NCBI RefSeq assembly: GCF_036785885.1
Contig: NC_092317.1
Coordinates: 8,806,501-8,870,500, forward strand
Source of the DNA: Coffea arabica
Lineage: Eukaryota; Streptophyta; Magnoliopsida; Gentianales; Rubiaceae
Length of the DNA stretch: 64,000 nt
Direction of reading: 5' to 3'
Shown here piece by piece: positions 3,682 through 55,512 of the stretch. The position numbers were made by a program, and so were the translations under genes. Within the stretch, counting starts at the first letter, position 1; every line of letters begins with the position of its first letter. The notes under the pieces were generated by a model. It saw only the letters and a list, made by a program, of their open reading frames with translations, was not told the origin of the DNA and made no database searches.

Positions 3682-3988
3682 TGAAACCCGCAAGCGGGAT
3701 TCTGTGTTTTTTCTATTTCAAGGTTAGCTCGCATGCGGGTTAATGTTATATTTGAGCGCGAGAAGAAAAAATTGGTAATTAGGCTCTTTGGGCATTATAA
3801 GTAAATATTTAAATTAATGGCAGTTTTATTACACCAATATTATTGTATTATCATTATTATGATTATTGTATTATTTCTTATGCAAATATAACATTTAATT
3901 ATCCAAGCAGTTTGATTTTATTTTTACAATTTATAAAATTTTTATCACTTATATAATATTTTTAAAACCCTAATACATCTAAATTTGA
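3682..3988. repeat. 307-bp direct repeat, copy 1
   Basis: This block from TGAAACCCGCAAGCGGG to CATCTAAATTTGA recurs 414 bp downstream at 4096-4402 with no difference that I can see. The 107-bp spacer between the copies contains a shorter, diverged echo of the block's T-rich end, so the duplication probably arose by unequal exchange or replication slippage inside the MULE-like element. Confidence 0.9.
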
Positions 3989-4095
3989 TTTTATTTTTCA
4001 AATTTATAAGATTTTTATTTAAAAAAATGGGATACGGATAAGATATCCGGTTGGTTCGATTTGCATAGGTGCATATGAGAATATCCGAATACTCC

Positions 4096-4402
4096 TGAAA
4101 CCCGCAAGCGGGATTCTGTGTTTTTTCTATTTCAAGGTTAGCTCGCATGCGGGTTAATGTTATATTTGAGCGCGAGAAGAAAAAATTGGTAATTAGGCTC
4201 TTTGGGCATTATAAGTAAATATTTAAATTAATGGCAGTTTTATTACACCAATATTATTGTATTATCATTATTATGATTATTGTATTATTTCTTATGCAAA
4301 TATAACATTTAATTATCCAAGCAGTTTGATTTTATTTTTACAATTTATAAAATTTTTATCACTTATATAATATTTTTAAAACCCTAATACATCTAAATTT
4401 GA
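4096..4402. repeat. 307-bp direct repeat, copy 2
   Basis: Second copy of the block at 3682-3988, offset by exactly 414 bp. It starts with the CCCGCAAGCGGG palindrome and contains GCTCGCATGCGGG, which shares the GCTCGCAT core with the palindrome cluster further right in the same element. Confidence 0.9.
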
Positions 4403-4657
4403 ATCTAATTTTCTACAAGTCATACTTATAAATGCGAAATCTAACAAAAAAGTTAAATACAATTTTTGCAGGTCAAATTTAACAAATGCGAGCTATTTGC
4501 AAAATTTTAAATATTTGCAACATTTTTTAAAACAAAAATTAGAAGCTTTCTGCAAATAATTCCCTACCTCTCAAAAAATACCAAAATAAAAAAGATAAGA
4601 GCTCGCATTTGCTTCCTAGAAATAATTCCCTAGCTCTTAAAAAAGGAAAAAAAAAAT

Positions 4658-13507: not shown

Positions 13508-16500
13508 TTACTGGTGAAGAACACTGACTTTGTATATGCCCCGGTATACATGTTCAGCTTGAAAAATATAATGATCTCCAGCTTGAATGCGATGTTCTTT
13601 GTTAAACTTATCCCAACAACCTGTCAAAACATGAAAACCTGATCTGTAATAATAGAGAGCTGGCCAGAATCTTTTCTCCTGATCTTGAAGCAAGACAGAC
13701 TTCCTGTCCATCCCCTTTCTGTATGTAATTCCCGGCAACTTTGCTGGTAACTCCTACACAAGCATGAGGTGGCAGAGAATTTGAAAAAGGAAAAGGAAAA
13801 GAAAAGCACATTAATTCACAAAACATGCTCTTGTGCAAAACACCACCACATATCTGTTCTCTTGATGTCCTCATTAATCCCAAGTCCTTAATAAATGACA
13901 GATTGGAAGCAAAAGATATCGAATTGCATAGTGTGCACTGCAGATAATGAAGCACATACGTCCCTGTTCATGTCCCTTGCCATAGCCATTTGTGTTGCTG
14001 ACAAACATTCCAAACTTTACATCTTTCTAACACAGAACCCAACCAGGTCAAACCATGACCCTTGTGCATGAATTTGGGTCATGCTTTCGGGGTCATGGGA
14101 AAGCAGCAACAAAGTATCCCAAAGTAACCTAATCACATGAAATTTATTAATCCTTTTGTTTCCTCTATTTTGATCCTTTTTCGATGCAGTTGCTTGGTGC
14201 CATCCCCTGAAAGCTATGGCTATTATCTCTCTAGATAACCTTTCCATCGTCATAAGCTTCTTCTCAGTTGTTGAAAAGAATATTACGGTTTGTACTTTGC
14301 TGTGTGAACTAAAATCTTATTGCACGTTTCTTCTTGATTACAAACCCCAAGTTTTGACAAGGAATAATGCAAATTCTCTTCCTTTTGCACATCCTCCAGT
14401 TTCAAATGTAATGAAAGCTTAAAACATACCAATTCCTTTTACTCTTGTTTCTGGATAAGGTAACCAATCTAAGCTCAGCTAAAACTTGACAAGCTGCACT
14501 CATATGACGTACTTATTTGACCCATTTGGCTTCTTCATCGAGAGAAAGAAATGATCATATTTTTCCCCTTGTTTCTTCTCTATCTGTACTATTACCTAAT
14601 AGTCTTCTTGAATCTCAACTTCATTTAGAAAACTATCATTGCATTCCATTTACAGTTTATTCTACTACCTCACAATTTCCTAATCTACCATCAAGCAAGA
14701 AAAACAAGTCAATTCATACACATAACAAAGACATAAATACATACCCAAAGCCATAAAAAATAAAATGACATTATTGTCTTATCTCTTTATTTATTTATTT
14801 ATTTTGGGGAGGAGGCGGTAGCATGACAGGAAGTGATGCAATCTGATTTGCATAAAAGTTGTCTAAAGAGATTGAATAAATAAGAGAAAATACTTCTCAT
14901 GTAACAAAGACGACAAATTTGTGCAGGGAATGAATCAAAGCTTAGAAGATTAAGAACAAAAGGTGTTGAAAGAAGGTACAAGGTAAGGTCGGCCATCCAT
15001 CATTGCCAAACAAGTGAGACTCTCAGTAACTGATGAAGGAATATCAAGTAAATCAACTGGCTCAAGTTTCACAGGTTTGCACACACAAGGACCTTGAGAG
15101 GAACTACCAATCTCCTTTATGCTCAATGGCTTCAAACCTGCATTTGGGTACTAACATATCAAGTAGAAAGCTGCCAATGCCAAGGTTAATTGGCGCTGAG
15201 AAGCATTTACATGCACAAAGAACAATCCAGGTATTAGTCAAAATCAATTAAATGCAAAAGGAAAAATCATACCTCTTAACCTCTTAGCAGAAGAATCCCC
15301 TTCCTCTCTTGTATCCGGATGCTCTTTTCTCACCATTTTCTTTGTTTCACCTGTGAGTAAAACCAAGCAATATAAGAAGCAAAGAAACTTGTTCTACAAA
15401 CACATCAGAGGCATTATTTGACAGGCCGCAAAGCAGCATGTGCACAGATGTCACTTATATATATTGTAGTTTATGGTTGTATATATTAATTCTGTATACA
15501 TTGTGACCCATCAGCCTTTGGCAAGAAGTTCACAAAACAATGTGTTACTAATGCAATCGGAGCAACCAATATTGTTCCATTCAGTTAAAAAAAAACAGTA
15601 TTAAAACAAAATAAACAAAACAAGAATATAACTGTTAACAGGTATCTTGGGAGGAAACATCTAGTCACATATTATGAGTGACCAACTAGTATTTATAGGA
15701 GTACAACCCTAACAAACTATTTACAAAAATACCCTTACTAATTTATTATCTACAAGAATACTTATATTCTCTTAACACTCCCCCTCAAGTTGGAGCATAT
15801 ATATCATAAGGACGAGGGACAAGATCCCAAGTACCATTTTTCTCCAAAGCAAGCATCTCTTCCTGCATAGCTAACCTCCAACCAGGATCATTGAGAGCAT
15901 GGGTAATAGACTTAGGAATGGATACCGAATCAAGAGATGCAACAAAAGAAGAATATGACAGAGAGAGACGAGAATAAGAGACAAAATTAGAAATAGGATG
16001 AGAAGTACAATGTCTCTTACCTTTACGTAAAGCAATAGGAAGATCTGACTCACAAGAGGGCGTCATACCTGGATCTGAAGATTGAGAGTTAATTGGTGAA
16101 GTGCGTAGCATATCAGGAGCTTTCTCAACCATGGAACGACGAGAATAAACTTGAAGATTAGGATGAGATAATCGAGTGGTGGAATCTGGTGAACCCGATA
16201 ACTCAGGTAATAAAGATGAAGGGACTGGTAAAACAGGAGGAGAAAAAGAGGAACACTGGTCTAACTCACAAGACATACCTTGCTTCATAAAATAAGGAGT
16301 GGATTCAAAGAAAGTAACATCAGCACAAGTGAAAAAACGATTTAAAACTGGACTGTAACATCTATACCCCTTTTGCGCTCGTGCGTATCCTAAGAAAATA
16401 CACTTAATGGCACGAGAATCTAATTTATCCACCCCGGGAGCAAGCTGATGAACAAAACACACACAACCAAAAATACGAGGAGGTAATTTAAATATAGGGT

Positions 16501-19500
16501 CCTGAGGAAAAAGAATGGAGTGAGGTAGTTGGCCTCCAAGAATATCGGATGGCATGCGATTAATTAAATAACATGCAGTTAAAACTGCATCACTCCAAAA
16601 TTGTTTGGGTACATTCATGTGCAACAAAAGTGTCCGAGCAACTTCGATTAAATGTCCAATTTTTCTTTCAGCAACTCCATTCTGTTGTGGAGTGTGAGGA
16701 CAAGAGGACTGATGAAGAATACCGGACTTAGTCATAAAGGTATCAAAAGGAGTGGAAAAATATTCTTTCGCATTATCACTGCGAAGTATACGTACAGGCA
16801 CACCAAATTGAGTCTTTATTTCTGTAACAAATGCACAAAAAATGGAATATAATTCTGAACGATCTTTCATTAAATAAAGCCATGTAACTCTGGAAAAATC
16901 ATCAACAAAGATTACAAAATATTTAAAACCTAACTTTGAAGTTACTCGACTAGGACCCCAAACATCAGAATGAACTAACAAAAAGGGTTCCGAAACCCGT
17001 TTATTGACCCTAGGGACAAAAGAAACACGATGATGCTTTCCTAATTGACAAGACTCACATTCTAATGAAGACAACTGACTCAAGGTAGGGACCAACTTCT
17101 TCAAATTTTGTAGAGACGGATGACCCAAACGACAGTGAATTTCAAGAGGAGAAACAGTAGCAGGGCACGCAATCGGACCATTAGAGTTGAGAAAGTAAAG
17201 ACCATTATGCTCATGTCCTCCACCAATCGTCCTCTTTGTCTTCAAATCCTGAATGACAACAAAATCAGGAGAAAAAATAACTGAACACTGTAGAGATTTA
17301 GTAAGCTTACTAACGGACATTAGATTAAAAGGCAAACTGGGAACGTAAAGAACAGAAGGCAGCGGAAGAGATGAGTTAATTTCTACAGTGCCTAGTCCTT
17401 TAACTTTAGTTGTAGATCCATCAGCTAAAGTAACATGAGGGAAGGAAGTAGACTCTTGAAAATTAGAAAAATTGCTAGAGGTACCTGACATATGATCAGT
17501 AGCTCCGGAATCAATGATCCATGAGTCAAAATTAGATGATGTGGAGAGACAAGCCATAGCATTACCTTTTTGTGCTACAGAAGTAGAGGGAAGAGATGCG
17601 TGATTTGCAGTTTGGTACTGCAGAAATTTGATATAATCTTCCTCAGATATGGTAACAGTCTTCTGAGACCCTTGTGCTAAAGAACTTGATTCAGTTTGAT
17701 CAGTGGTAACCGTATTAACAAACCGAGGTGGTTTTCCATTTAAATCCCAACAAGTATCACGAGTGTGATTCTTTAAACCACAATGATTGCACTCACGGGT
17801 GCCTCGACCTCCACGACCCCCACGACCTCCTCTACTTCTTCCTCCACGAGAGCCACGTCCAAAATTAAGTTGCTCTGTCCGATTATTGTTAGCAATTAAA
17901 GCAGATTTGTCATTAATTAAAGCACCATCACCCTGTGCATTGTCCTTAGATGCAGAACGTAAGACCCGAGCATACGCCTCTGCAAAGGATGGTAATTGTT
18001 CACCTGCTAAAAATTTGAGATTTGATTGGTTCAAATTCCGGCTTGAGACCAGCCAGGAATTTGAGCACAAGCATGTGTTCTCTTTGCCTCTGCATAACCT
18101 TGATATCACTTGAGAGAGGCATTACAGCATTTAATTCCTCTGAGACTCGCTTAAGATCAGCAAAGTATTCAGTTACTGTCTTGTTATCTTGTTGCAACTG
18201 AAAATACTCCAAAGAAATATCAAACATCCGTGAGAGATTACTGCAATATAATAACCGGACATAATCCCAAACTTCTTTTGTTGTCTCACAATGAGAACAC
18301 ATGTAAGCAATTCGTGGCTCCATAGAATTCCATATTGCTCCAAGAATTTGGGCATCCTCTTGAATCCACATTAGTTTCTTGCTATCCTCCGTAGGAGAGT
18401 CATCTGTGAGATAACGTTGCTTTCCTAAGCCTGTCAGATAAATCTTAACAGCTTTTGACCACTGTTGATAATTGGTATCATTCAACTTCCAATTTGTGAT
18501 TTGAGGCATCACCATTGGCATAATATTAGTGGACGTCACAATACTTTTTGATAAACTTTCAGCCATAGCGAATAGCACTTCAAACCCAAGAAAGGGTCAA
18601 AACTCGAGACGCGTGAACAGTACGCGTGAACAGTGCGGGCGTGAACAGTGCCGCGATAAACAGTGCGGCGTGAACAGTACTTTGCTAGATGTTTAACCTA
18701 AACCCTAGGACTCTTGCTCTGATACCATGTAAAGAGGTATCTTGGGAGGAAAACATCTAGTCACCGTAGATATGCAGCAGGTGCATCACAGGGAGCGGTG
18801 CCTGGTAGCATGAGAGGAGGAAGCAACGCGAACATGATGCGGAAGAAAGGAGGGGAAGAGTCGAGCAGCAAGACCACCTCGTGGGTGCCGGACCCCGTGA
18901 CCGGATATTACAGGCCTGAGACACACGCCGCCGAGATTGATGCTGCGGAGCTCCGCAGCATCAATCTCGGCGGCGTGTGTCTCAGGCCTGTAATATCCGG
19001 TCACGGGGTCCGGCACCCACGAGGTGGTCTTGCTGTTCAAAGAAAGTAACATCAGCACAAGTAAAAAATCGATTTAAAACTGGACTGTAACATCTATACC
19101 CTTTTTGCGCTCGTGCATATCCTAAGAAAATACACTTAATAGCACGAGAATCTAATTTATCCACCCCGGGAGCAAGCTGATGAACAAAGCACACACATCC
19201 AAAAATACGAGGAGGCAATTTAAACACAGGTTCATGAGGAAAAAGAATGGAGTAAGGTAATTGACCTCCAAGAATATTAGATGGCATGCGATTAATTAAA
19301 TAACATGCTGTTAGAACTGCATCACTCCAAAATTGTTTGGGCACATTCATGTGCAACAAAAGTGTCCGAGCAACTTCGATTAAATGTCCAATTTTTCTTT
19401 CAGCAACTCCATTCTGTTGTGGAGTGTGAGGACAAGAGGACTGATGAAGAATACCGGACTTAGTCATAAAGGTATCAAAAGGAGTGGAAAAATATTGAAG

Positions 19501-21092
19501 TGACTCGACTAGGACCCCAAACATCAGAATGAACTAACAAAAATGGTTCAGAAACCCGTTTATTGACTCTAGGAGCAAAAGAAACACGATGATGCTTTCC
19601 TAACTGACAAGACTCACACTCTAACGAAGATAATTGACTCAAAGTAGGAACCAATTTTTTCAAATTTTGTAAAGACGGATGACCTAAACGACAGTGAATT
19701 TCAAGAGGAGAAACAGTAGCAGGACATGCTATCGGACCATTGAAGTTGAGAAAATAAAGACCATTATGCTCATGCCCTCCACCAATCGTCCTCTTTGTCT
19801 TCAAATCCTGAATGACAACAGAATCAGGAGAAAAAGTAACTGTACACTGTAGAAATTTAGTGAGCTTACTAACAGACATTAGATTAAAGGGCAAATTGGG
19901 TACGTAAAGAACAGAAGACAGCGGAAGTGATGGATTAATTTCTACAGTGCCTAGTCCTTTAACTTCAGTGGTAGATCCATCAGCTAAAGTAACATGAGGA
20001 TATGGAGTAGACTCTTGAAAATTAGAAAAAATTTTAGAGGTACCTGACATATGATCAGTAGCCCCGGAGTCAATAATCCATGAGTCATTATCTTTTTGTG
20101 CTAAAGAAGCAGAGGGAAGAGATGCGTGATTTGTAATTTGGTACTGTAGGAATTTAACATAATCCTCCTCAGATATAGTAACAGTCTTCTGGGACCCATG
20201 TGCTGAAAAACTCGATTCAATGTGGTCATTGGTAACCGCATTAACAAACCTTTCAATCATGGCGAATGGCACATCAAACCAAAGAAAAGGTCAAAACTCA
20301 AGATGACAGTGACGTGTGAACAGTGCCGTGAACAGTGAACAGCGCCGCGCGAACAGTGCTGTGAACAGTACCGATGAACAGTACCGATGAACAGTGCCCC
20401 CGCGTGAACAGTCGCGGTGAACAGTATCGCGTGAACAGTCACGATGACCAAAACTTTTGCTAGATGTTTAACCCTAACCCTAGGACTTTTGCTCTGATAC
20501 CATGTTAACAGGTATCTTGGGAGGAAACATCTAGTCACATATTATGAGTGACCAACTAGTATTTATAGGAGTACAACCCTAACAAACTATTTACAAAAAT
20601 ACCCTTACTAATTTATTATCTACAAGAATACTTATATTCTCTTAACAATAACATACAATTCTATCCAAAGCACACTTAAACCAATATGAAAATGACAGCA
20701 ATTTATGGGGTAGGGCTGTAAATGGTCATGCTCTAGATTCAGATATATATCCTATTATGCACACACATACATCTAAGCGGCACATAGAGCTTATACTTGT
20801 ATTAAAATGCATATATGCAGTTTATTTAGTTAAAAAGTAACTTTAAACATAAACAAAAAAATTTGTTCTTACAACTTTACCATTTACAAAAAGCATAAAG
20901 AAGAGCTTAAATTGAGCAATAACAATCAGACATGGTCACGGAAATGGCTGGTAAAATCCAAATCCCAACCATGAGAAGCGTAGGTGGGGGAGAAAGCACC
21001 GAGTCAGTGAAGGGTCAGAAATAACAAGAGGAAGAGATAGTGGACAAGCATGGGACACAGACAGAAACAGGTTGGGGTTTGTTACTGCAGCC

Positions 21093-21139
<47 letters not shown>

Positions 21140-24100
21140 AGGGAGTTCGTGTTTGCTGTCAGTTGTTAAGAAAAAGAAAAGGGATAGAGAAAGGGCAGCA
21201 AGCAGCAAGGGCATATCTGGTAAAGCTGTCTGTAAGAGGTCTCCAATTTCCCAAAAAAAGGTGATTTGAGCACTAAGGGATTGGCAATTTAGTGTGGAGG
21301 GGAATGATACGGCACCATCAACATGCACCTAAGGTTTGTTAGAACCTAAAATTGAGGTACAAATCAATAACGTGCCAAAAACCATGGGTCTCTGGACATT
21401 CATTCAGCTGTTCATCTTCTGCTTAAGTATATTTTTCATAGAATCTCACTGCCAAAGGGTATCAGTTAGCACCTCAGAGCTATGCAACATGGAAGCAGTA
21501 AGAGGGAAAAGTGGTCCACATGGAAGGAATAAGCAAAAAATTAGTACCAAGCACTGAAAGGGATAGAGAGCCATGACATAAGAATATACCTGCAAATTCC
21601 TCTTGACTGTCTCTGAAGCAAGCTCCTTCATCAGCATATGGGGAACTCCAATCAACATCTAACACGTTACAAGATTATATTTAAGGTAAGATAGACGAAG
21701 CGAATACAACTTCAATGGAGATCATATACAATACTTGTAGAAATAGAGAGAAAAAGACAGTAACTAACCGTATTTCTTGTTGCTCCTCTCAGCATTCTGG
21801 AGTTGGATATACACATTTGACATGTTACCACCTTTTTCACCAAGTTCTGGACAAAGAACCGTTGGAAGGCTATTAGAGCGGTCAGCCAAGGGAACTTTTT
21901 CACATTCAAGTAATATAGCATCCTTGCTTCCCAAATTATAGTCATTCACCAGCATGCCAATATCAGTCTCCTCTGTAAAAGTAGCTGTTTCCAAATCTTT
22001 AGTTCTTGTTGGATCTTTATCAGCCCCATCTTGACATCTCAAGCTTACCTCTCTGTGGTCAGAAGTTCCTTCTACTGCATTTATACCTCTATCAGAGTCA
22101 TGCTCAGGTAACATATCATCCTTAGCTTCCAAGTTGTTGTCATTCACCATAATGCCAATATCTGTCTCCTCTGTAAAAGTAGCTATCTTCAAATCCTCAG
22201 TTCCTGGTGGATCTTTATCTGCTCCATCTTGACATCTCAAGCTTGTCTGAGAGTGGTCAGAAGAACCTTGTACTGCATCAATACCTTTATCAGTGTCACA
22301 TTTCAGCAACATACCATCCTCAGGTTTCAACTCATCGTAATTCACCATCATGCCAATACCGTGGTCAGAAGTTCCTTGTACTGCATTTATTCCTCTATCA
22401 GAGTCACGCTCAGATAACATATCATCCTCAGCTTCCAAGTTGTTGACATTCACCATCATGCCAATATCTGTCTCCTCTGTAATAGTAGCTATCTTCAAAT
22501 CCTCAGCTCCTGTTGGATCTTTATCTGCCCCATCTTGACATCTCAAGCTTGTCTGAGAGTGGCCAGAAGAACCTTGTACTGCATCAATACCTTTATCAGT
22601 GTCACATTTAAGCAACATACCATCCTCAGGTTTCAAGTCGTCATCATTCACCATCACGCCAATATCATTCTCCTCTGTAAAAGTAGCTAACTTCAAATCC
22701 TCGGGTCCTGTTGGATCTTTATCAGCCCCATTTTGACATCTCAGGCTTGTCTGAGTGTGTTCAGACGTACCTTGTACTGCATCTATCCCTTTATCAGTAT
22801 CACGTTCAAGCAACATATCACCCTTGGCTTCCAAGTCCTTTTCATTCACCATCATTCCCATATCAGTCTCCTCCGTAAAAGTAGCCATCTTCAAATCCTT
22901 GGTTCCAACCTTGGTTCCTGTTGGATCTTTATCTGCCTCATCTTGGGATCTCATGCTTGTCTGAGTGTGGCCAGAAGTACTTTGTACTGCATCTATACCT
23001 TTATCAGTGTCAGCAACTTCCTTATCTCCCTGCAATTCAAACTCAGACAAATCATACAAACACATCCTCCTTTCACCCGGTCCAGGCCCAGCATCCCAGT
23101 CTATCATCATATCAAAGGAACTGTCCAAGAAGGACCAATTTCCATTGCCACCTTCAGCATTTAGAGTGCTATTTGTGGTGGTTGGTAGGATGTGGTTGTT
23201 TTTGGAGTTTGATCCAGACACGCCTGAGGTGCTCGAATTCTGTCTGTTGATTGGGTTGGTATCTATTTTCTCACAAGGTTTACCCCCAGAGGATATACTC
23301 CCTCTGGTTCGAGCTCTTTTACGTGGCAAGCCAATTTTATCAGATGCTCTTTCACAACAGCTTTTGTCAAAAATATAAACAACAAAGTGAGTTCCCTTGA
23401 TATAATTGAATAACAAAAAGTCTCCAGCTTGCAAATTATGATCTAATGAAAACTCCGGCCAACCCCTACTGAAAGCAAGTGAATTCTTAACAAGCGACAA
23501 TGTTACTGTCCATTGCACACCATTTGAGTCCTCAAGTTTGGTTTCTTGATTAGCCAAATACATCACTGTATCAGCAAATTTACGGGGCAATAACTGTCAA
23601 AGAGTAGCGAATATTAGGAACAATGGAAATCTTCAAGAATATTTTGAGTTTGCAAATGCCAGACTGGTGAAATAATATATATTCAACACTGTAAAAGAGA
23701 TAAAAGGTACATTGACATGGTAAAACATATGCATAAACTAAGTACTAATTTGAAAGATGCACATATGTTCTTTTAGGTCCACAACGTAAGTAAGTCTGTT
23801 ACTGATAATAAGAAACTTTCTACACCAGACCCTGATTTGAACCCAGGTACATAAAAATCAAATAACGGAATTTACCAAGGAAATGAAAAAAGGCTCAAAC
23901 AAATAATTCACTGTAACTAAGAAACATACTCTAGAGGCACAAAACCTCGACTCTCACTTTCCTTATCTCCTCTACAAGAAAATTTCTTGCTGTCATGTTT
24001 CAAGCTTAATCTTCTTAGCGGAGTTTACACGCTATTGTTCAAACATTTGAAACTTGAGTCACTCATCCACTTCATCTCATCCATATGTTTTAGGCAGTCT

Positions 24101-25811
24101 CATCGCTATGATAACGACTTTTCTCCACCTAATAGAGAATAAAGGCGCAACTAAAAGCAAGCAGCAAAAGGAAGTTGCAAAACCAACAAAGGACCTAAAA
24201 CTGTTGTTAGTAAATGATCAATACAAATGCAGCATTGTGAAACTGCTTTATAATCTTTTAGCCAAAAATGCCATGTGTTGCTGCCTATGGAAATGTGATA
24301 TTGTAAGACCTGGTAAAAAAAAAAAAAAACTAGAGAAAATAATTGCACTTATACAGGAATGCAAAAACTTCCTTGTAATAAAAGTAAAAGTTAATAAATT
24401 ACCATATCTTAGACTCCTGTTCTGAATACTTAGGAACGACATGAATGAGTATATAAGCAAAACACAAACTGCTTAGTCACTTTAGTTAGAATTAGAGCCT
24501 TCAAAATTGCAGTCAGCAGGAAATAATCCTCAACATCTTCTCTTAGATGGTCAAAGACATGACTAGTTCAGTATCCGACTTGATAAATTATTAAATAAAA
24601 AAACTAAATAAACATTATAAAATTGTCAGATGCCTAGAGAATGCATGATCATTGATGCCATTTAACAGATCCACAATGAACTAGCATTAAAAAGGATTAT
24701 ACTCAAGTGTGCTCCATTAAGTGTATATAATATCAGACTTAGTTAAAGCTCCAAGGAACAGGAAGACAGTTAAGGACCATAAGGGGCACTAGAAAAGTTT
24801 TTCCATAATAAGCACAAACACCCTGAGGCTATGAATAATAGGAGGCTCCCAAGAGAAGTCCTCAATTAGACCTTCATCCTTACAGAAACTTGGGGGTCTC
24901 TCTCCTCGTTTGTGGTTCACCAAGAAGGTGAAAACTAATGAAAACTGCAACCAGACAGAGCTTAGAGACCATAGCAAGTAGTAAGCACTTTTTTGTTCAA
25001 AGATGTCAAGGTAAAATGAAAGTTACTGCCATACTTTCATTGGATTGTCAGCTCTGGAGACCTAAACTGGCATAAGCTTTTACAATTCATAATAGACAGA
25101 TCGAATCAATTACCTAAAAGCAAATTGATACTATAAATTGGTATTCTACCCGTACAGAAAGCTTCTGATGAATAAAACTGAAGCTTCTGATGAATAAACT
25201 GAAGCTTTTGATGAATAAAACTGTGAAAGTAATTGAAAGAGTCAAAATTATACGAAACAAACTTGAGAAAGGAAAATGGAACAGAAAGGGTTCAATTTTC
25301 CACTTCCCACTAATATCCTTTGGTATGCTTTTGGCTTTGTTTTAATGCCATATACCTTGCAAATTATTAGCTAGTATCATGGTAAAACAATTCAATGTGT
25401 TTGCACAATAGTGTAAACCAAAATTTGAGACATAGCTTCATCATAAAACTGCAATCTCCATGAAAGAATTTCCATTCCCAGGCCCCCATATTTGCGCCAC
25501 CCTCATCCATATTTAGGGAATACATATGCAGACAGAAACACATTTACCATTTGGAGCTAATACAACATCATTTGTAACTCAATTTTTGGACCACCAAAAC
25601 TGGAAAAACAAACACGATAATTCAAAGCTAAAAGTGAATGACCATACAAAAGTGTTAAACTTATTACTTTACATACCAGAAACTGTGAAAAATCATCCCC
25701 AACCAAGACTTTGAAAAAACGGGTCACACTGGGTGATAAATCCATCTTGTTACGATGAGTCAACTGACAATTCCTGATGCACTCTTCACATGCTCCCGCC
25801 ATTACAACCAT
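13508..25811 (-). CDS. Protein with two B3 DNA-binding domains and acidic 66-residue repeats
   Basis: Six coding exons on the - strand: 25811-25677, 23593-21769, 21658-21590, 15350-15273, 15137-14980, 13753-13508 (836 codons). Each junction is GT..AG and the phases (0,1,1,1,0) close. Residues 16-120 form the first B3 domain (FFKVLVGDDFSQFLLLPRKF ... FSLDHNLQAGDFLLFNYIKG). A KRAR basic patch follows, then the repeat region, then the second B3 domain over the last two exons (DGRPYL joined to ELPAKLPG, then SVLLQDQEKRFWPALYY and NKEHRIQAGDHYIF). B3 proteins of this REM-like group are nuclear and bind DNA. Targets cannot be read here. Translation starts at the ATG at 25811, or at the second ATG at 25802. 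Intron 3 (15351-21589) holds a complete copia element in the same orientation. Confidence 0.88.
15633..15777 (-). repeat. Copia LTR, 3' copy
   Basis: 145 bp with TGTTAA...TTAACA ends, identical to the copy at 20503-20647. The polypurine tract GAGGGGGAG abuts it at 15778-15786 on the - strand. Because the element lies sense within the B3 gene, the LTR's transcription signals face the same way as the host transcript. Confidence 0.95.
15785..18008 (-). pseudogene. Copia pol: zinc knuckle, protease and integrase; reverse transcriptase deleted
   Basis: In order: an RGG-rich stretch, zinc knuckle CNHCGLKNHTRDTC (CCHC), protease DSGATDHMSG, GAG-pre-integrase CRLGHPSLQNL...CESCQLGKHH, and an integrase core with its acidic triad in LVHSDVWGP, RSDNAKEY and GVAERKIGH. 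After ALEKNGTWDLVP, the start of the reverse transcriptase domain, the frame jumps within a few codons to YDIYAPT and stops, immediately before the polypurine tract. About 1.5 kb encoding reverse transcriptase and RNase H is therefore missing by an internal deletion near 15800-15815. Confidence 0.9.
18000..18566 (-). pseudogene. Copia gag, frame-shifted from pol
   Basis: The frame MAESLSKSIV...LVLKFLAGLKPEFEPIKSQ is a copia capsid (UBN2-type gag: NYQQWSKAVKIYLTG, TKEVWDYVRLLY, LQQDNKTVTEYFADLKRVSEE). It stops at 18000 because the A run at 18009-18013 (T run on the coding strand) is one base too long. The pol frame continues just beyond. The extra base could be a real mutation or a homopolymer sequencing error. 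Confidence 0.85.
18728..18765 (-). repeat. Internal LTR end fragment with second primer-binding site
   Basis: On the - strand the last ~37 bases of an LTR (GTGACTAGATGTTTTCC..., ending TACCTCTTTACA) are followed by TGGTATCAGAGC at 18727-18716. The terminal TCTTTACA differs from TGTTAACA in the outer LTRs, so this piece derives from a different family member. Confidence 0.85.
18766..19035 (+). pseudogene. Captured LEA_3 (SAG21/LEA5-type) gene fragment, inverted on itself
   Basis: The + strand at 18766-18956 encodes RRYAAGASQGAVPG...MMRKKGGEES...TTSWVPDPVTGYYRPETHA and AEIDAAELR, the conserved C-terminal half of LEA_3 proteins such as Arabidopsis SAG21/AtLEA5 (WVPDPxTGYYRPE, EIDAAELR). These are small mitochondrial stress proteins. 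The last 85 coding bases (18866-18950) are followed with no spacer by their exact reverse complement (18951-19035), so the host stop codon is lost. GC content is far above the flanks. One edge is fused to the LTR fragment and the other to integrase sequence, so this is not a functional LEA gene. Confidence 0.88.
18866..19035. repeat. Perfect 170-bp palindrome without spacer
   Basis: Arms 18866-18950 and 18951-19035 are exact reverse complements, with the centre at GCGGAG/CTCCGC. RNA read from either strand would fold into an 85-bp perfect hairpin. Confidence 0.95.
19037..20268 (-). pseudogene. Second, diverged copia protease-integrase fragment
   Basis: This half starts MPFAM, then jumps (near 20250) to RFVNAVTNDHIESS, losing gag and the zinc knuckle. 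Protease DSGATDHMSG and CRLGHPSLQNL are present. A second deletion near 19493-19500 removes the integrase segment between SDVWGPSRVTS and YFSTPFDTF, including the middle catalytic aspartate, and shifts frame. It ends inside FTCADVTFFE at the palindrome. Many silent and amino-acid differences from the other half show that it comes from another copy of the family. Confidence 0.88.
20290..20450 (-). repeat. TGAACAGT-type repeats in the copia leader
   Basis: Between the primer-binding site and the gag start, TGAACAGT recurs roughly ten times at irregular 10-20 base spacing, separated by GC-rich linkers (GCCGCGCG, CCCCGCG). The second leader inside the element (18612-18680) has about five more, one mutated to TAAACAGT. 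They could be protein-binding or packaging sites. This is inference. Confidence 0.8.
20503..20647 (-). repeat. Copia LTR, 5' copy, with adjacent primer-binding site
   Basis: Identical to the other LTR. The 12 bases at 20491-20502 read, on the - strand, TGGTATCAGAGC, the usual copia primer-binding site for initiator methionine tRNA. The LTR is short for a copia element. Confidence 0.95.
21095..21133. repeat. (GA)n microsatellite
   Basis: Nearly 20 uninterrupted GA units followed by GGGAGGGAGGGAG, in intron 3 of the B3 gene. Confidence 0.95.
21902..23011 (-). repeat. Coding tandem repeat of 198 bp (66 residues) in the B3 gene
   Basis: Five near-complete units and one truncated unit follow each other in frame, each starting DTDKGIDAVQ or DSDRGINAVQ and carrying CQDGADKDPTG, then EDLKIATFTEETDIGMMVN, then LEAEDDMLLE-like residues. 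Lengths in order are 70, 66, 66, 36, 66 and 66 residues. The truncated fourth unit lost about 30 residues without breaking the frame. The units are strongly acidic (D/E about a quarter of residues) and probably disordered. Confidence 0.93.
25159..25223. repeat. Three-copy 21-22 bp tandem repeat in B3 intron 1
   Basis: AAGCTTCTGATGAATAAAAC followed by TG is repeated three times with single-base changes (CTTTTG in copy 3, one A missing in copy 2). Non-coding. Confidence 0.85.
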
Positions 25812-25826
25812 CTCTCTTTCCTGTTC

Positions 25827-26760
25827 TCTGCACTCACAACACGTACAAACACACACACACACACAGAAGATCACATAATTGATATGCCACAATAATCCAG
25901 CAAGTACATAACTTAACAAAAATATACTTGTGAATAAACCAATCCCAGATACAAAATTTAAGTTCTAAACCCCCCCCCCCAAAAAAAAAAAAAAAAGCCA
26001 CCTCTCACGCAAAACGAACAAAAAGTATAACGAAAGGAAATCACAGCAATAAAGATTGAATTATTACCATACTCAGCCGAGAATTCACAGGGATAACATA
26101 CAATACCAATAATAAGGCCACCAAAAAGAATGAAGTATGAAAACGGGGATTAAAAACCCAAAAAAAGTTTTAAAAAATAACAAATAAATTAAAAGGCTCC
26201 CACCTAAAACCCTTCACCTTCATCAGGGTTTAACAATTAACACTCCACACCATTGACAGAGACTAAATGTTTTAACCTTAGAGATGATAAATTACTCAGA
26301 TAGCAGGCATTTTACCAGCTACATATATAAAAATCAAATTAATTAGAAACCCAAAAGACACATAATTCAAAACACTTCGCTTTCAGGGTTTAAAATTTAA
26401 CTTTCTCTGGACCCAGGTGAAAAGTTTGAACTTTTACCCCACGCAACAAAGAAATCACATAGAGAAAGAAAACGTGTATTCTGCCCAAAAGAGATAAAAT
26501 GGGGTTGAAAAAAAAGCGTAAAAAGCTAGTTTTCTTGGGTGATCAAGGTGAAAACCTTAGCTGCATTCTGATAACGAATCGAAATTTTTACCCTGTACAG
26601 ACGAGGAATTCCTAGTTATATCTGCAGGAAAAATACCCAAAAAAAAAAAGAAACAATGGGAAGAAACTAAAAGACTCACATTTAGAACCCTTCAGCTTCA
26701 GGCTTCAACGGAGGGTTCAAAGAGAAAGGAGACGCAAGGGCAGGGGAAGAGAGCAGAGTT
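25827..26760 (-). promoter_or_regulatory. Probable 5' untranslated exon, leader intron and start region of the B3 gene
   Basis: On the - strand a CT-rich exon (about 26760-26680) ends TAAAT followed by GTGAGT, a strong donor. A TG/GT-rich tract ending GTGAGTGCAG at 25828 gives an acceptor 16 bases before the ATG at 25811. This implies a leader intron of about 850 bp (roughly 25828-26679). The outer boundary is a guess from composition. Confidence 0.5.
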
Positions 26761-29665: not shown

Positions 29666-30141
29666 TAGGGGTGCTAGCAAGTCAAGCTGCTCGCGAGCAG
29701 CTTGATCAAAAGCTTGACTCGAGCTCGAGCTCAGTAAAATCGAGCTCGAGTTTGAGCTCGAGCTACTCGTTAAATTTAACGAGTCGAGTTCGAGTTCAAG
29801 AAATAAGTACTTGAGTGCTCGCCGAGCTTAATCGAGCTTTCATATTTTATTTATATTATATATTTTTATTATATATTTTTTAAAAAAAATTATAGATTTA
29901 TTTCAAAACTCGAGCTCGAGTTTTGAAATAAATCTATAATTTTTATTTTTTAGGTCGAGTAGCTCGGGCTTGATATTTACTCGAGCTCAAACAAGTCGAG
30001 ATCGAGTTTAGTTTTATTTCATCGAGTCGAGCTCGAGTCCAAATTTTTTTACTCGATCGAGCTCGAGTAGCACAAATTTTGATCGAGCTCGAGCTCGAGT
30101 ATGGTGCTACTCGAGTTCGACTCGGTTCGATAGCACCTCTA
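29666..30141. mobile_element. hAT-like MITE rich in CGAGCTCGAG
   Basis: Ends TAGGGGTGCTAGCAAG and its partner GATAGCACCTCTA. Flanks GTCTTAGG (29658-29665) and GTCTTATG (30142-30149) agree at 7 of 8 positions, an 8-bp hAT-type duplication. Subterminal arms are packed with GCTCGAG words, and the core at 29850-29960 has its own AATTATAGATTTATTTCAAA inverted pair. Confidence 0.78.
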
Positions 30142-54447: not shown

Positions 54448-55139
54448 TAGGGATGTACGCGAGCCGAGCTTCTCGCGAGTAGCTCAGTCAACGGCTTGGC
54501 TCGAACTCGGTCAAATCGAGTTCGAGCCGAGTTTCGAGTAGCTCGATTGGCGTTCGAGTCGAGTTTCGAGTCTCAAATTTTTGGCTCGAGGCTTGTTGAG
54601 TAGCTTGTCGAGCCGAGCTATTTAAATAATATATTTATAATTTAAATCATATATATGTATTATAATTATAAAATGACTATTATGGGTATAGGTTATACGG
54701 AATTTACAATATACTCTTCTTTATAATAAAATTTTATAAGGGTAAAAAAGTAATAACATAATTATAAAAATACCTAAAAAGAAAAAATGTCTAAAAAATG
54801 CCTCAGTTTTTTGGTCGAGTCGAGTCAAAAAACTTGATTAGACTCGGCTTGATAAGGCTTGACTAAGGGTCGAGCCTTATCGAGTCGAGTTTCGAGCTTA
54901 GAGCGAGTACATCGAGTCAAGTTTCGAGTATCAATTTTTTTGACTCGATCGAGCTCGAGCCTAGGGATATATGAGTCGAGTCGAGCTCGAGTATAGCACT
55001 ACTCGAATCGAGTCTAATGATTTAAAAAATCGATTCAATTTATTTCTATCCCTAGGTACCACACCTAGGGATGTAATCGAGCCGAGTCGAGCTCGAGTAT
55101 AGCACTACTCGAGCTTGACTCGGCTCGATTACATCCCTA
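54448..55139. mobile_element. hAT-like element with CGAGCCGAG arms
   Basis: It begins TAGGGATGTACGCGAGCCG and ends CGGCTCGATTACATCCCTA. The exact 8-bp repeat GGTGTGGT lies at 54440-54447 and 55140-55147. Subterminal DNA is rich in TCGAGT words and the core is AT-rich. A 42-bp direct duplication at the left edge repeats both the target sequence and the first 25 bases of the element (54398-54439). Confidence 0.82.
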
Positions 55140-55200
55140 GGTGTGGTACCTAGGGATGGAAATAAATTGAATCGATTTTTTAAATCATTAGACTCGATTC
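55005..55200. repeat. 196-bp near-perfect palindrome spanning the right end of the hAT-like element
   Basis: Arms 55005-55099 and 55106-55200 are reverse complements with only a couple of mismatches (G/A near 55090, T/C near 55049). The loop is TAGCAC. Each arm contains ATCCCTAGGTACCACACC, i.e. a transposon terminus plus the target repeat in inverted form. Confidence 0.9.
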
Positions 55201-55204
55201 ATAT

Positions 55205-55512
55205 TTTTGTACTCGAATTCGAATCTTATATGAGTTCAAAATTTAAGTTAAAGTTTGATTCTAGAGTTCAAAATCTTCTTTAACTTTTTACTTTTAATAT
55301 TACGTTATCAATATTACGTGTACAATATACAATAGAAATATAACTTTGCACCAAAATATTAATAAAAATATTAGAAATTATACGGGTCTCATTGAGCCTA
55401 AACGAGGTATAAGTTCGAATTCGATTCGACACCTTAATTGAATCTTAATATTTGTTCAAAGTCTAGCTCGAGTTGGTTAAAAAATCGAACTTGAATTGAG
55501 TTCATTAAGGCC
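55205..55512. other. Probable relic of a related CGAG-rich element
   Basis: ACTCGAATTCGAATCTTATA, AGTTCGAATTCGATTCGACA and TCTAGCTCGAGTTGG resemble the arms of the neighbouring hAT-like elements. No intact end on the right can be defined. Confidence 0.4.

Follow-up and report, generated by a model that had tools for sequence, protein, structure and literature searches.

A host LEA5/SAG21 exon fragment as a perfect inverted repeat in a chimeric copia-type insertion of coffee, probably formed in one reverse-transcription cycle

Results

A copia-type insertion in a B3 gene intron

The locus lies in a 64-kb window (the whole stretch of Coffea arabica DNA that was analysed), within a B3-domain gene that shares 96% identity with a protein named from Coffea arabica. 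The coding matches of this gene in tblastn with P0242 (25829-25644, 23593-21770, 21659-21588, 15381-14980 and 13753-13511) are all on the minus strand. Its large exon (ORF 21764-23590, minus) contains tandem repeats at 21900-23012 with a period of 198 bp (66 aa). The insertion (15633-20647, 5,015 bp, minus strand, Ty1/copia-type) is located in the intron that separates the coding match 21659-21588 from the match 15381-14980, on the same strand as the gene, so that the position within the B3 gene given by the first-pass annotation was correct. The features are as follows.

13511-25829, minus strand: B3-domain gene, located by tblastn of P0242 (named from Coffea arabica), with PF02362 in two exons
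15628-15632, no strand: left copy of the target site duplication (TSD) ATAAC, which is present once in the empty homeologous site (L076)
15633-15777, minus strand: 3' LTR, 145 bp, TG...CA, identical to 20503-20647
15778-15810, minus strand: type A 3' end with a purine-rich tract adjoining the LTR; 15633-15813 is 97.8% identical to L044 versus 91.8% to L042
15808-15810, minus strand: junction J0, type A 3' end to type B near the start of the reverse transcriptase (RT) domain, AAG common to both sides, by comparison with relatives
15808-18768, minus strand: type B segment, with the first RT codons, integrase, protease, gag, leader, primer binding site (PBS), and U5 and R of a second LTR, by identity to L042 and Pfam domains
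18728-18768, minus strand: partial internal LTR, R-U5 side only, 41/41 nt equal to the L042 and L043 LTRs
18769-18950, plus strand: LEA5/SAG21 exon 2 fragment, sense on the window plus strand, 181/182 nt equal to L002; PF03242
18939-18962, no strand: fold point, at a donor quasi-palindrome that pairs at 9/11 positions and is completed by G in place of the donor T at 18947, by comparison with the donor
18951-19035, minus strand: second palindrome arm, LEA antisense on the window plus strand, exact reverse complement of 18866-18950
19036-20502, minus strand: type A segment, with part of the integrase region, the protease region and a gag-less leader, by comparison with relatives
20491-20502, minus strand: PBS of the type A segment, adjoining the 5' LTR
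20503-20647, minus strand: 5' LTR, 145 bp, identical to 15633-15777
20648-20652, no strand: right copy of the TSD ATAAC, by sequence comparison

The insertion has the structural features of Ty1/copia elements, with TG...CA LTRs, a PBS adjoining the 5' LTR, a polypurine tract and a 5-bp TSD. The PBS TGGTATCAGAGC presumably pairs with the initiator tRNA-Met, and the purine-rich tract beside the 3' LTR is taken to be the polypurine tract. Copia-type gag (PF14223) and integrase (PF00665) were detected by Pfam search, and the protease is presumed from its motif alone. The RT domain is absent from the insertion; in the near parent L042, RVT_2 (PF07727) is found downstream of the common part. The capture of a LEA piece by a copia element, as originally proposed, is supported by a copia-type LTR insertion around the piece.

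The outer LTRs are identical at 145/145 positions. The homeologous site on contig C7 is empty, with one ATAAC and 95% alignment on both flanks. Identical LTRs, the TSD and the precise empty homeologous site together indicate one integration. From zero LTR differences, the insertion would be younger than about 0.8 million years (95% bound). Zero differences between the palindrome arms would place the palindrome under about 1.4 million years (95% bound), and arm-to-arm conversion would loosen this bound. A rate of 1.3e-8 per site per year was assumed for both.

The palindrome and its predicted fold

The stretch 18866-19035 is an exact palindrome without spacer and with 85-nt arms; on rechecking, the exact 85-bp spacer-free inverted repeat described at first pass was confirmed. 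In the repeat search it lengthens to 88-nt arms at 99%. The other exact zero-spacer arms in the 64-kb window reach 30, 15 and 12 nt at most, and the chance expectation for a palindrome with 85-nt arms is about 4e-47 per window (64000 / 4^85). Only 18866-18950 of the LEA part is doubled, and 18769-18865 is single copy. The LEA stretch had been placed at 18766-19035. LEA sequence is present there, but it starts at 18769, since 18765-18768 (CGTA) belongs to the partial LTR. Untemplated filler was considered for this CGTA and rejected, because the LTRs of close relatives read CACCGTATTATG.

The predicted RNA fold of 18766-19035 (minus strand) has an energy of -210.2 kcal/mol, compared with a mean of -90.1 (sd 5.0) for 200 shuffles (z = -23.9), and 0/200 shuffles folded equally well. 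The stretch 18866-19035 holds a host gene piece in two inverted copies able to fold, which is one of the traits of an inverted-duplication hairpin small-RNA locus.

Fold-back reads are known to give artefactual palindromes without spacer, and a chimeric read of this kind could have made the palindrome during sequencing or assembly. Such a read would mirror both flanks, whereas the palindrome borders unrelated integrase sequence on one side and its other arm runs on into single-copy LEA and then LTR. The fold also lies at a natural quasi-palindrome with one corrected base. An artefact is hardly credible on this evidence.

Other repeats were also observed in the window. A fold-back sequence at 29885-29944 has exact 30-bp arms and zero spacer, and a 248-bp palindrome at 54978-55225 has 88.8% self-match; by their sequence, both resemble fold-back MITEs with many TCGAGCTCGAG-like motifs. 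A 318-bp direct duplication with 99.06% identity and 414 bp between starts is located at 3682-4413.

The captured piece and its donor gene

The captured fragment belongs to LEA_3a (PF03242, E 2.7e-21; Pfam search). Its translation matches P0002, a SAG21 protein of Coffea, at 98% identity, and the best LEA protein is named from C. eugenioides. When the 1.198-Gb assembly (131 contigs) was searched with the LEA piece at the DNA level, 4 matches were obtained, two in the insertion and two in LEA genes on contig C2 (3/3 candidates scored); a further element copy carrying LEA was not found among them. The protein search returned the two close LEA genes and one distant relative at 39% (10/10 candidates scored). 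Besides the insertion, neither search found a close SAG21/LEA5 copy on other contigs. A protein search with the integrase-LEA fusion frame gave 787 matches, and none of the best 120 covers more than 94% of the query, a result silent on other fusion copies.

A close parental LEA_3 gene in the same genome, as expected by the first-pass annotation, is L002, the donor-type locus. It equals the captured fragment at 181/182 nt, and the sole change, at 18947, replaces T with G and lies four bases away from the fold. L003 has one difference more. Both genes carry GCT at the changed codon. The two are nearly identical SAG21/LEA5 genes at 54.80 and 56.48 Mb of C2, about 1.7 Mb apart and in opposite orientation.

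The captured piece lies wholly inside exon 2 and begins past the fifth base of the exon. The absence of an intron had been considered as a test of RNA origin and was rejected as uninformative, since for a piece within one exon a missing intron cannot prove such an origin.

The fold point at a donor quasi-palindrome

Among 3,160 centres in the 3,182-bp donor locus L002, the fold centre is the sole one with at least 9/11 pairs. The only donor difference in 182 nt, T to G, makes the palindrome perfect. In the product, the inner donor mismatch was resolved toward one arm and the outer mismatch toward the other. One snap-back accounts for the 85-nt arm and for the outer position. However, such a snap-back by itself leaves a T/C mismatch close to the tip, and removing this mismatch takes either a further correction or a donor allele that was not seen. 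The change from T to G at the inner position would come from either quasi-palindrome correction during antisense LEA cDNA synthesis, later arm-to-arm correction, or a donor allele outside the assembly. The first of these is preferred, because the order of the parts already demands an antisense LEA template.

If a natural antisense LEA transcript served as the template, or if the donor allele carried GCG and hence a perfect 14-nt palindrome, a single snap-back would be enough. This variant of the reverse-transcription origin set out below saves one switch, and a perfect 14-nt palindrome would favour reversal. Yet both close LEA genes have GCT at the codon, and the protein search added one distant relative only (10/10 candidates scored). 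We regard the variant as a serious minority possibility.

The element is a chimera of two element types

Left to right on the window plus strand corresponds to the direction of minus-strand cDNA. In this direction the order is type A 3' end, J0, type B, J1, LEA sense, reversal at J2, LEA antisense, J3, type A and 5' LTR. The type B segment is 99.66% identical over 2961 bp to the L042 element on contig C17, whose own LTRs are 100% identical, and 99.6% to L043 on contig C3 (best 40 of 435 candidates scored for type B relatives). J0 skips about 1.4 kb of type B, and in L042 the skipped stretch holds RVT_2 (PF07727). L042, L043 and L044 are without J0, J1 and J3, and five type A relatives continue normally beyond J3. 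The exact type A parent was not found among the best 40 of 798 candidates scored, the best compared being about 95% identical (L050); it may exist in the genome beyond the scored candidates. The leaders of both element types (18613-18680 and 20306-20440) contain irregular tandem repeats of a TGAACAGT unit.

Counted from the first T of the TATA box in the LTR, the type B segment ends 26 nt further 3' (TATA at 80 and the junction sequence at 106 of the L042 LTR). Judged by the usual distance from a TATA box to the transcription start, this end is close to the predicted cap site of type B, and the candidate cap is the A or T of TACGGTGAC.

A 172-nt deletion is located at 19495/19496, with two bases common to its ends as judged on copy B. 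It occurs in 0/17 relatives covering the site (14/29 loci and L042-L044), so it would be private to the insertion or a close parent. The gag deletion of copy A was also considered as part of the capture event and was rejected, since 17/29 relatives are without the same stretch (11 carry it and 1 is uninformative). By this comparison the gag-less state of type A is older than the capture. The 17 relatives (L050, L052, L053, L055, L058, L059, L062-L069, L071, L072 and L074) represent a gag-less copia subfamily, which is perhaps mobilised in trans.

J1 and J3 have zero microhomology, and annealing therefore does not account for them. Plant break repair copies filler DNA and makes inversions, and the chimera might have arisen at the DNA level: an older A/B element, tandem or nested, would have broken and been filled with LEA sequence under strand reversal, and the composite would then have transposed once as a unit. 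Identical LTRs and one TSD would be the outcome of such a transposition, and junctions without microhomology would also fit. However, a parental composite with LEA was not found in the genome, the end of type B near the predicted cap site would be a coincidence, and the succession of type A 3' end, type B and type A again, together with a deletion absent from the relatives, would take several independent DNA events. A DNA-level origin is thus considered unlikely.

Proposed origin in one reverse-transcription cycle

The chimera was probably made by serial template switching and strand reversal within one reverse-transcription cycle. We infer the co-packaging, the order of synthesis, the cap position, the nature of the antisense LEA template and the route by which the last mismatch was corrected. 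RNAs A and B of one copia-type family and a LEA5 nucleic acid would have been co-packaged in one virus-like particle. Minus-strand synthesis would start on RNA A, switch templates close to where the RT domain begins, and continue on RNA B past the primer site of B up to its capped 5' end. A capped RNA 5' end promotes template switching by MMLV RT, according to the consulted part of PMC6885630. The growing strand would then jump to an antisense LEA strand and copy LEA sense; the order of the parts requires an antisense strand as the template. At the LEA quasi-palindrome, the strand would reverse, by snap-back on itself or by annealing to LEA mRNA, and 85 nt would be copied back as antisense. 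The next jump would lead to the integrase region of RNA A, followed by normal completion, and integrase would place the chimera in the B3 gene intron. Of the self-priming origin suggested earlier, the strand reversal during reverse transcription with a fold at a natural quasi-palindrome is retained, but an antisense LEA template would be required in addition, and the single base change suggests a quasi-palindrome correction besides the reversal that persisted.

Possible hairpin RNA

Because the element is intronic and in the sense of the gene, the B3 pre-mRNA would carry the hairpin. Exact 21-mer matches of one arm amount to 61/65 for L002 and 40/65 for L003. A known miRNA family was not supported, since none of 16 Rfam matches (E up to 1) reached its gathering score, and the tRNA scan was empty. 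Judged from the sequence, siRNA output from the hairpin is possible, and silencing of LEA5 would be a possible consequence.

Discussion

The closest known kind is the template-switching complex LTR element described from Triticeae, rice and maize (PMC1950507; Sabot and Schulman 2007), which is explained by switching between co-packaged RNAs. The coffee element likewise represents a single integration of a chimera of two element RNAs, with an internal LTR between nearly identical outer LTRs and a TSD of 5 bp, and the flanking TSD and highly similar outer LTRs that characterise the published elements are found here as ATAAC on both sides and 145/145 identity. In contrast to the complete internal LTR of those elements, that of coffee is a 41-bp R-U5 stub. 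Those elements also hold two complete cores, whereas in coffee the type A core is without gag and the part beyond integrase, and the type B core is without RT. Where the published elements have an R-to-R transfer, the switch point in coffee holds a host exon as an inverted repeat, which is new compared with this class. The coffee element resembles these elements in the way it works, but it is not filed as one of them.

Host genes captured by LTR retrotransposons are described for rice, sorghum and maize in the consulted part of PMC3726574, where small RNA effects are suggested. The coffee element similarly holds a host gene piece inside an LTR element. Compared with the cases in that part, the coffee piece measures 182 nt, runs antisense to the element and is in part duplicated into a perfect palindrome, and its junctions and donor are resolved. 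The fold itself resembles quasipalindrome template-switch mutation, in which, in the sections consulted of PMC7202029 and PMC3820800, reversal at an imperfect inverted repeat perfects the arms; here the donor pairs at 9/11 positions and the product is perfect. Unlike the events in those sections, the coffee arm is 85 nt, it ends in a jump to another template, and the setting is a retroelement insertion rather than chromosomal replication.

Two inverted host-gene copies where transcription is expected are likewise assumed when the birth of plant miRNAs is explained by inverted duplication (Allen 2004, cited in the part consulted of PMC3237417). For non-MITE elements, that part of PMC3237417 has two copies inserting nearby in opposite orientation, whereas the mechanism for the coffee hairpin would be reverse transcription. 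A 2026 review of plant gene capture (PMC13317346) treats template switching and captured sequences as siRNA reservoirs, and its main text, as far as consulted, nowhere uses the word 'hairpin'. Among the top-ranked titles and abstract beginnings in the open-access literature, no LTR element was found that carries a captured host gene in the form of a perfect inverted repeat, a result that does not prove absence from print.

Inverted host-gene duplications are regarded as seeds of plant miRNA and siRNA genes, and their formation was called little known in 2011, in the same part of PMC3237417. The coffee insertion is a very young case whose donor gene is still present in the genome, together with a near parent of one of the element parts, so that every junction can be read. 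The widest reading takes it as a newborn hairpin RNA locus against LEA5/SAG21, with a one-step reverse-transcription origin and intronic siRNAs acting on LEA5/SAG21, and takes its route (cap run-off, switch to a host strand and quasi-palindrome reversal) as a general, unrecognised source of the inverted duplications behind plant miRNA and hairpin-siRNA genes; as a whole, this reading is quite doubtful. The question of formation is made testable, since young LTR insertions with host-gene inverted repeats either have their centres on quasi-palindromes or not. These results suggest that copying errors of a retrotransposon can generate a new RNA hairpin matching a host gene.
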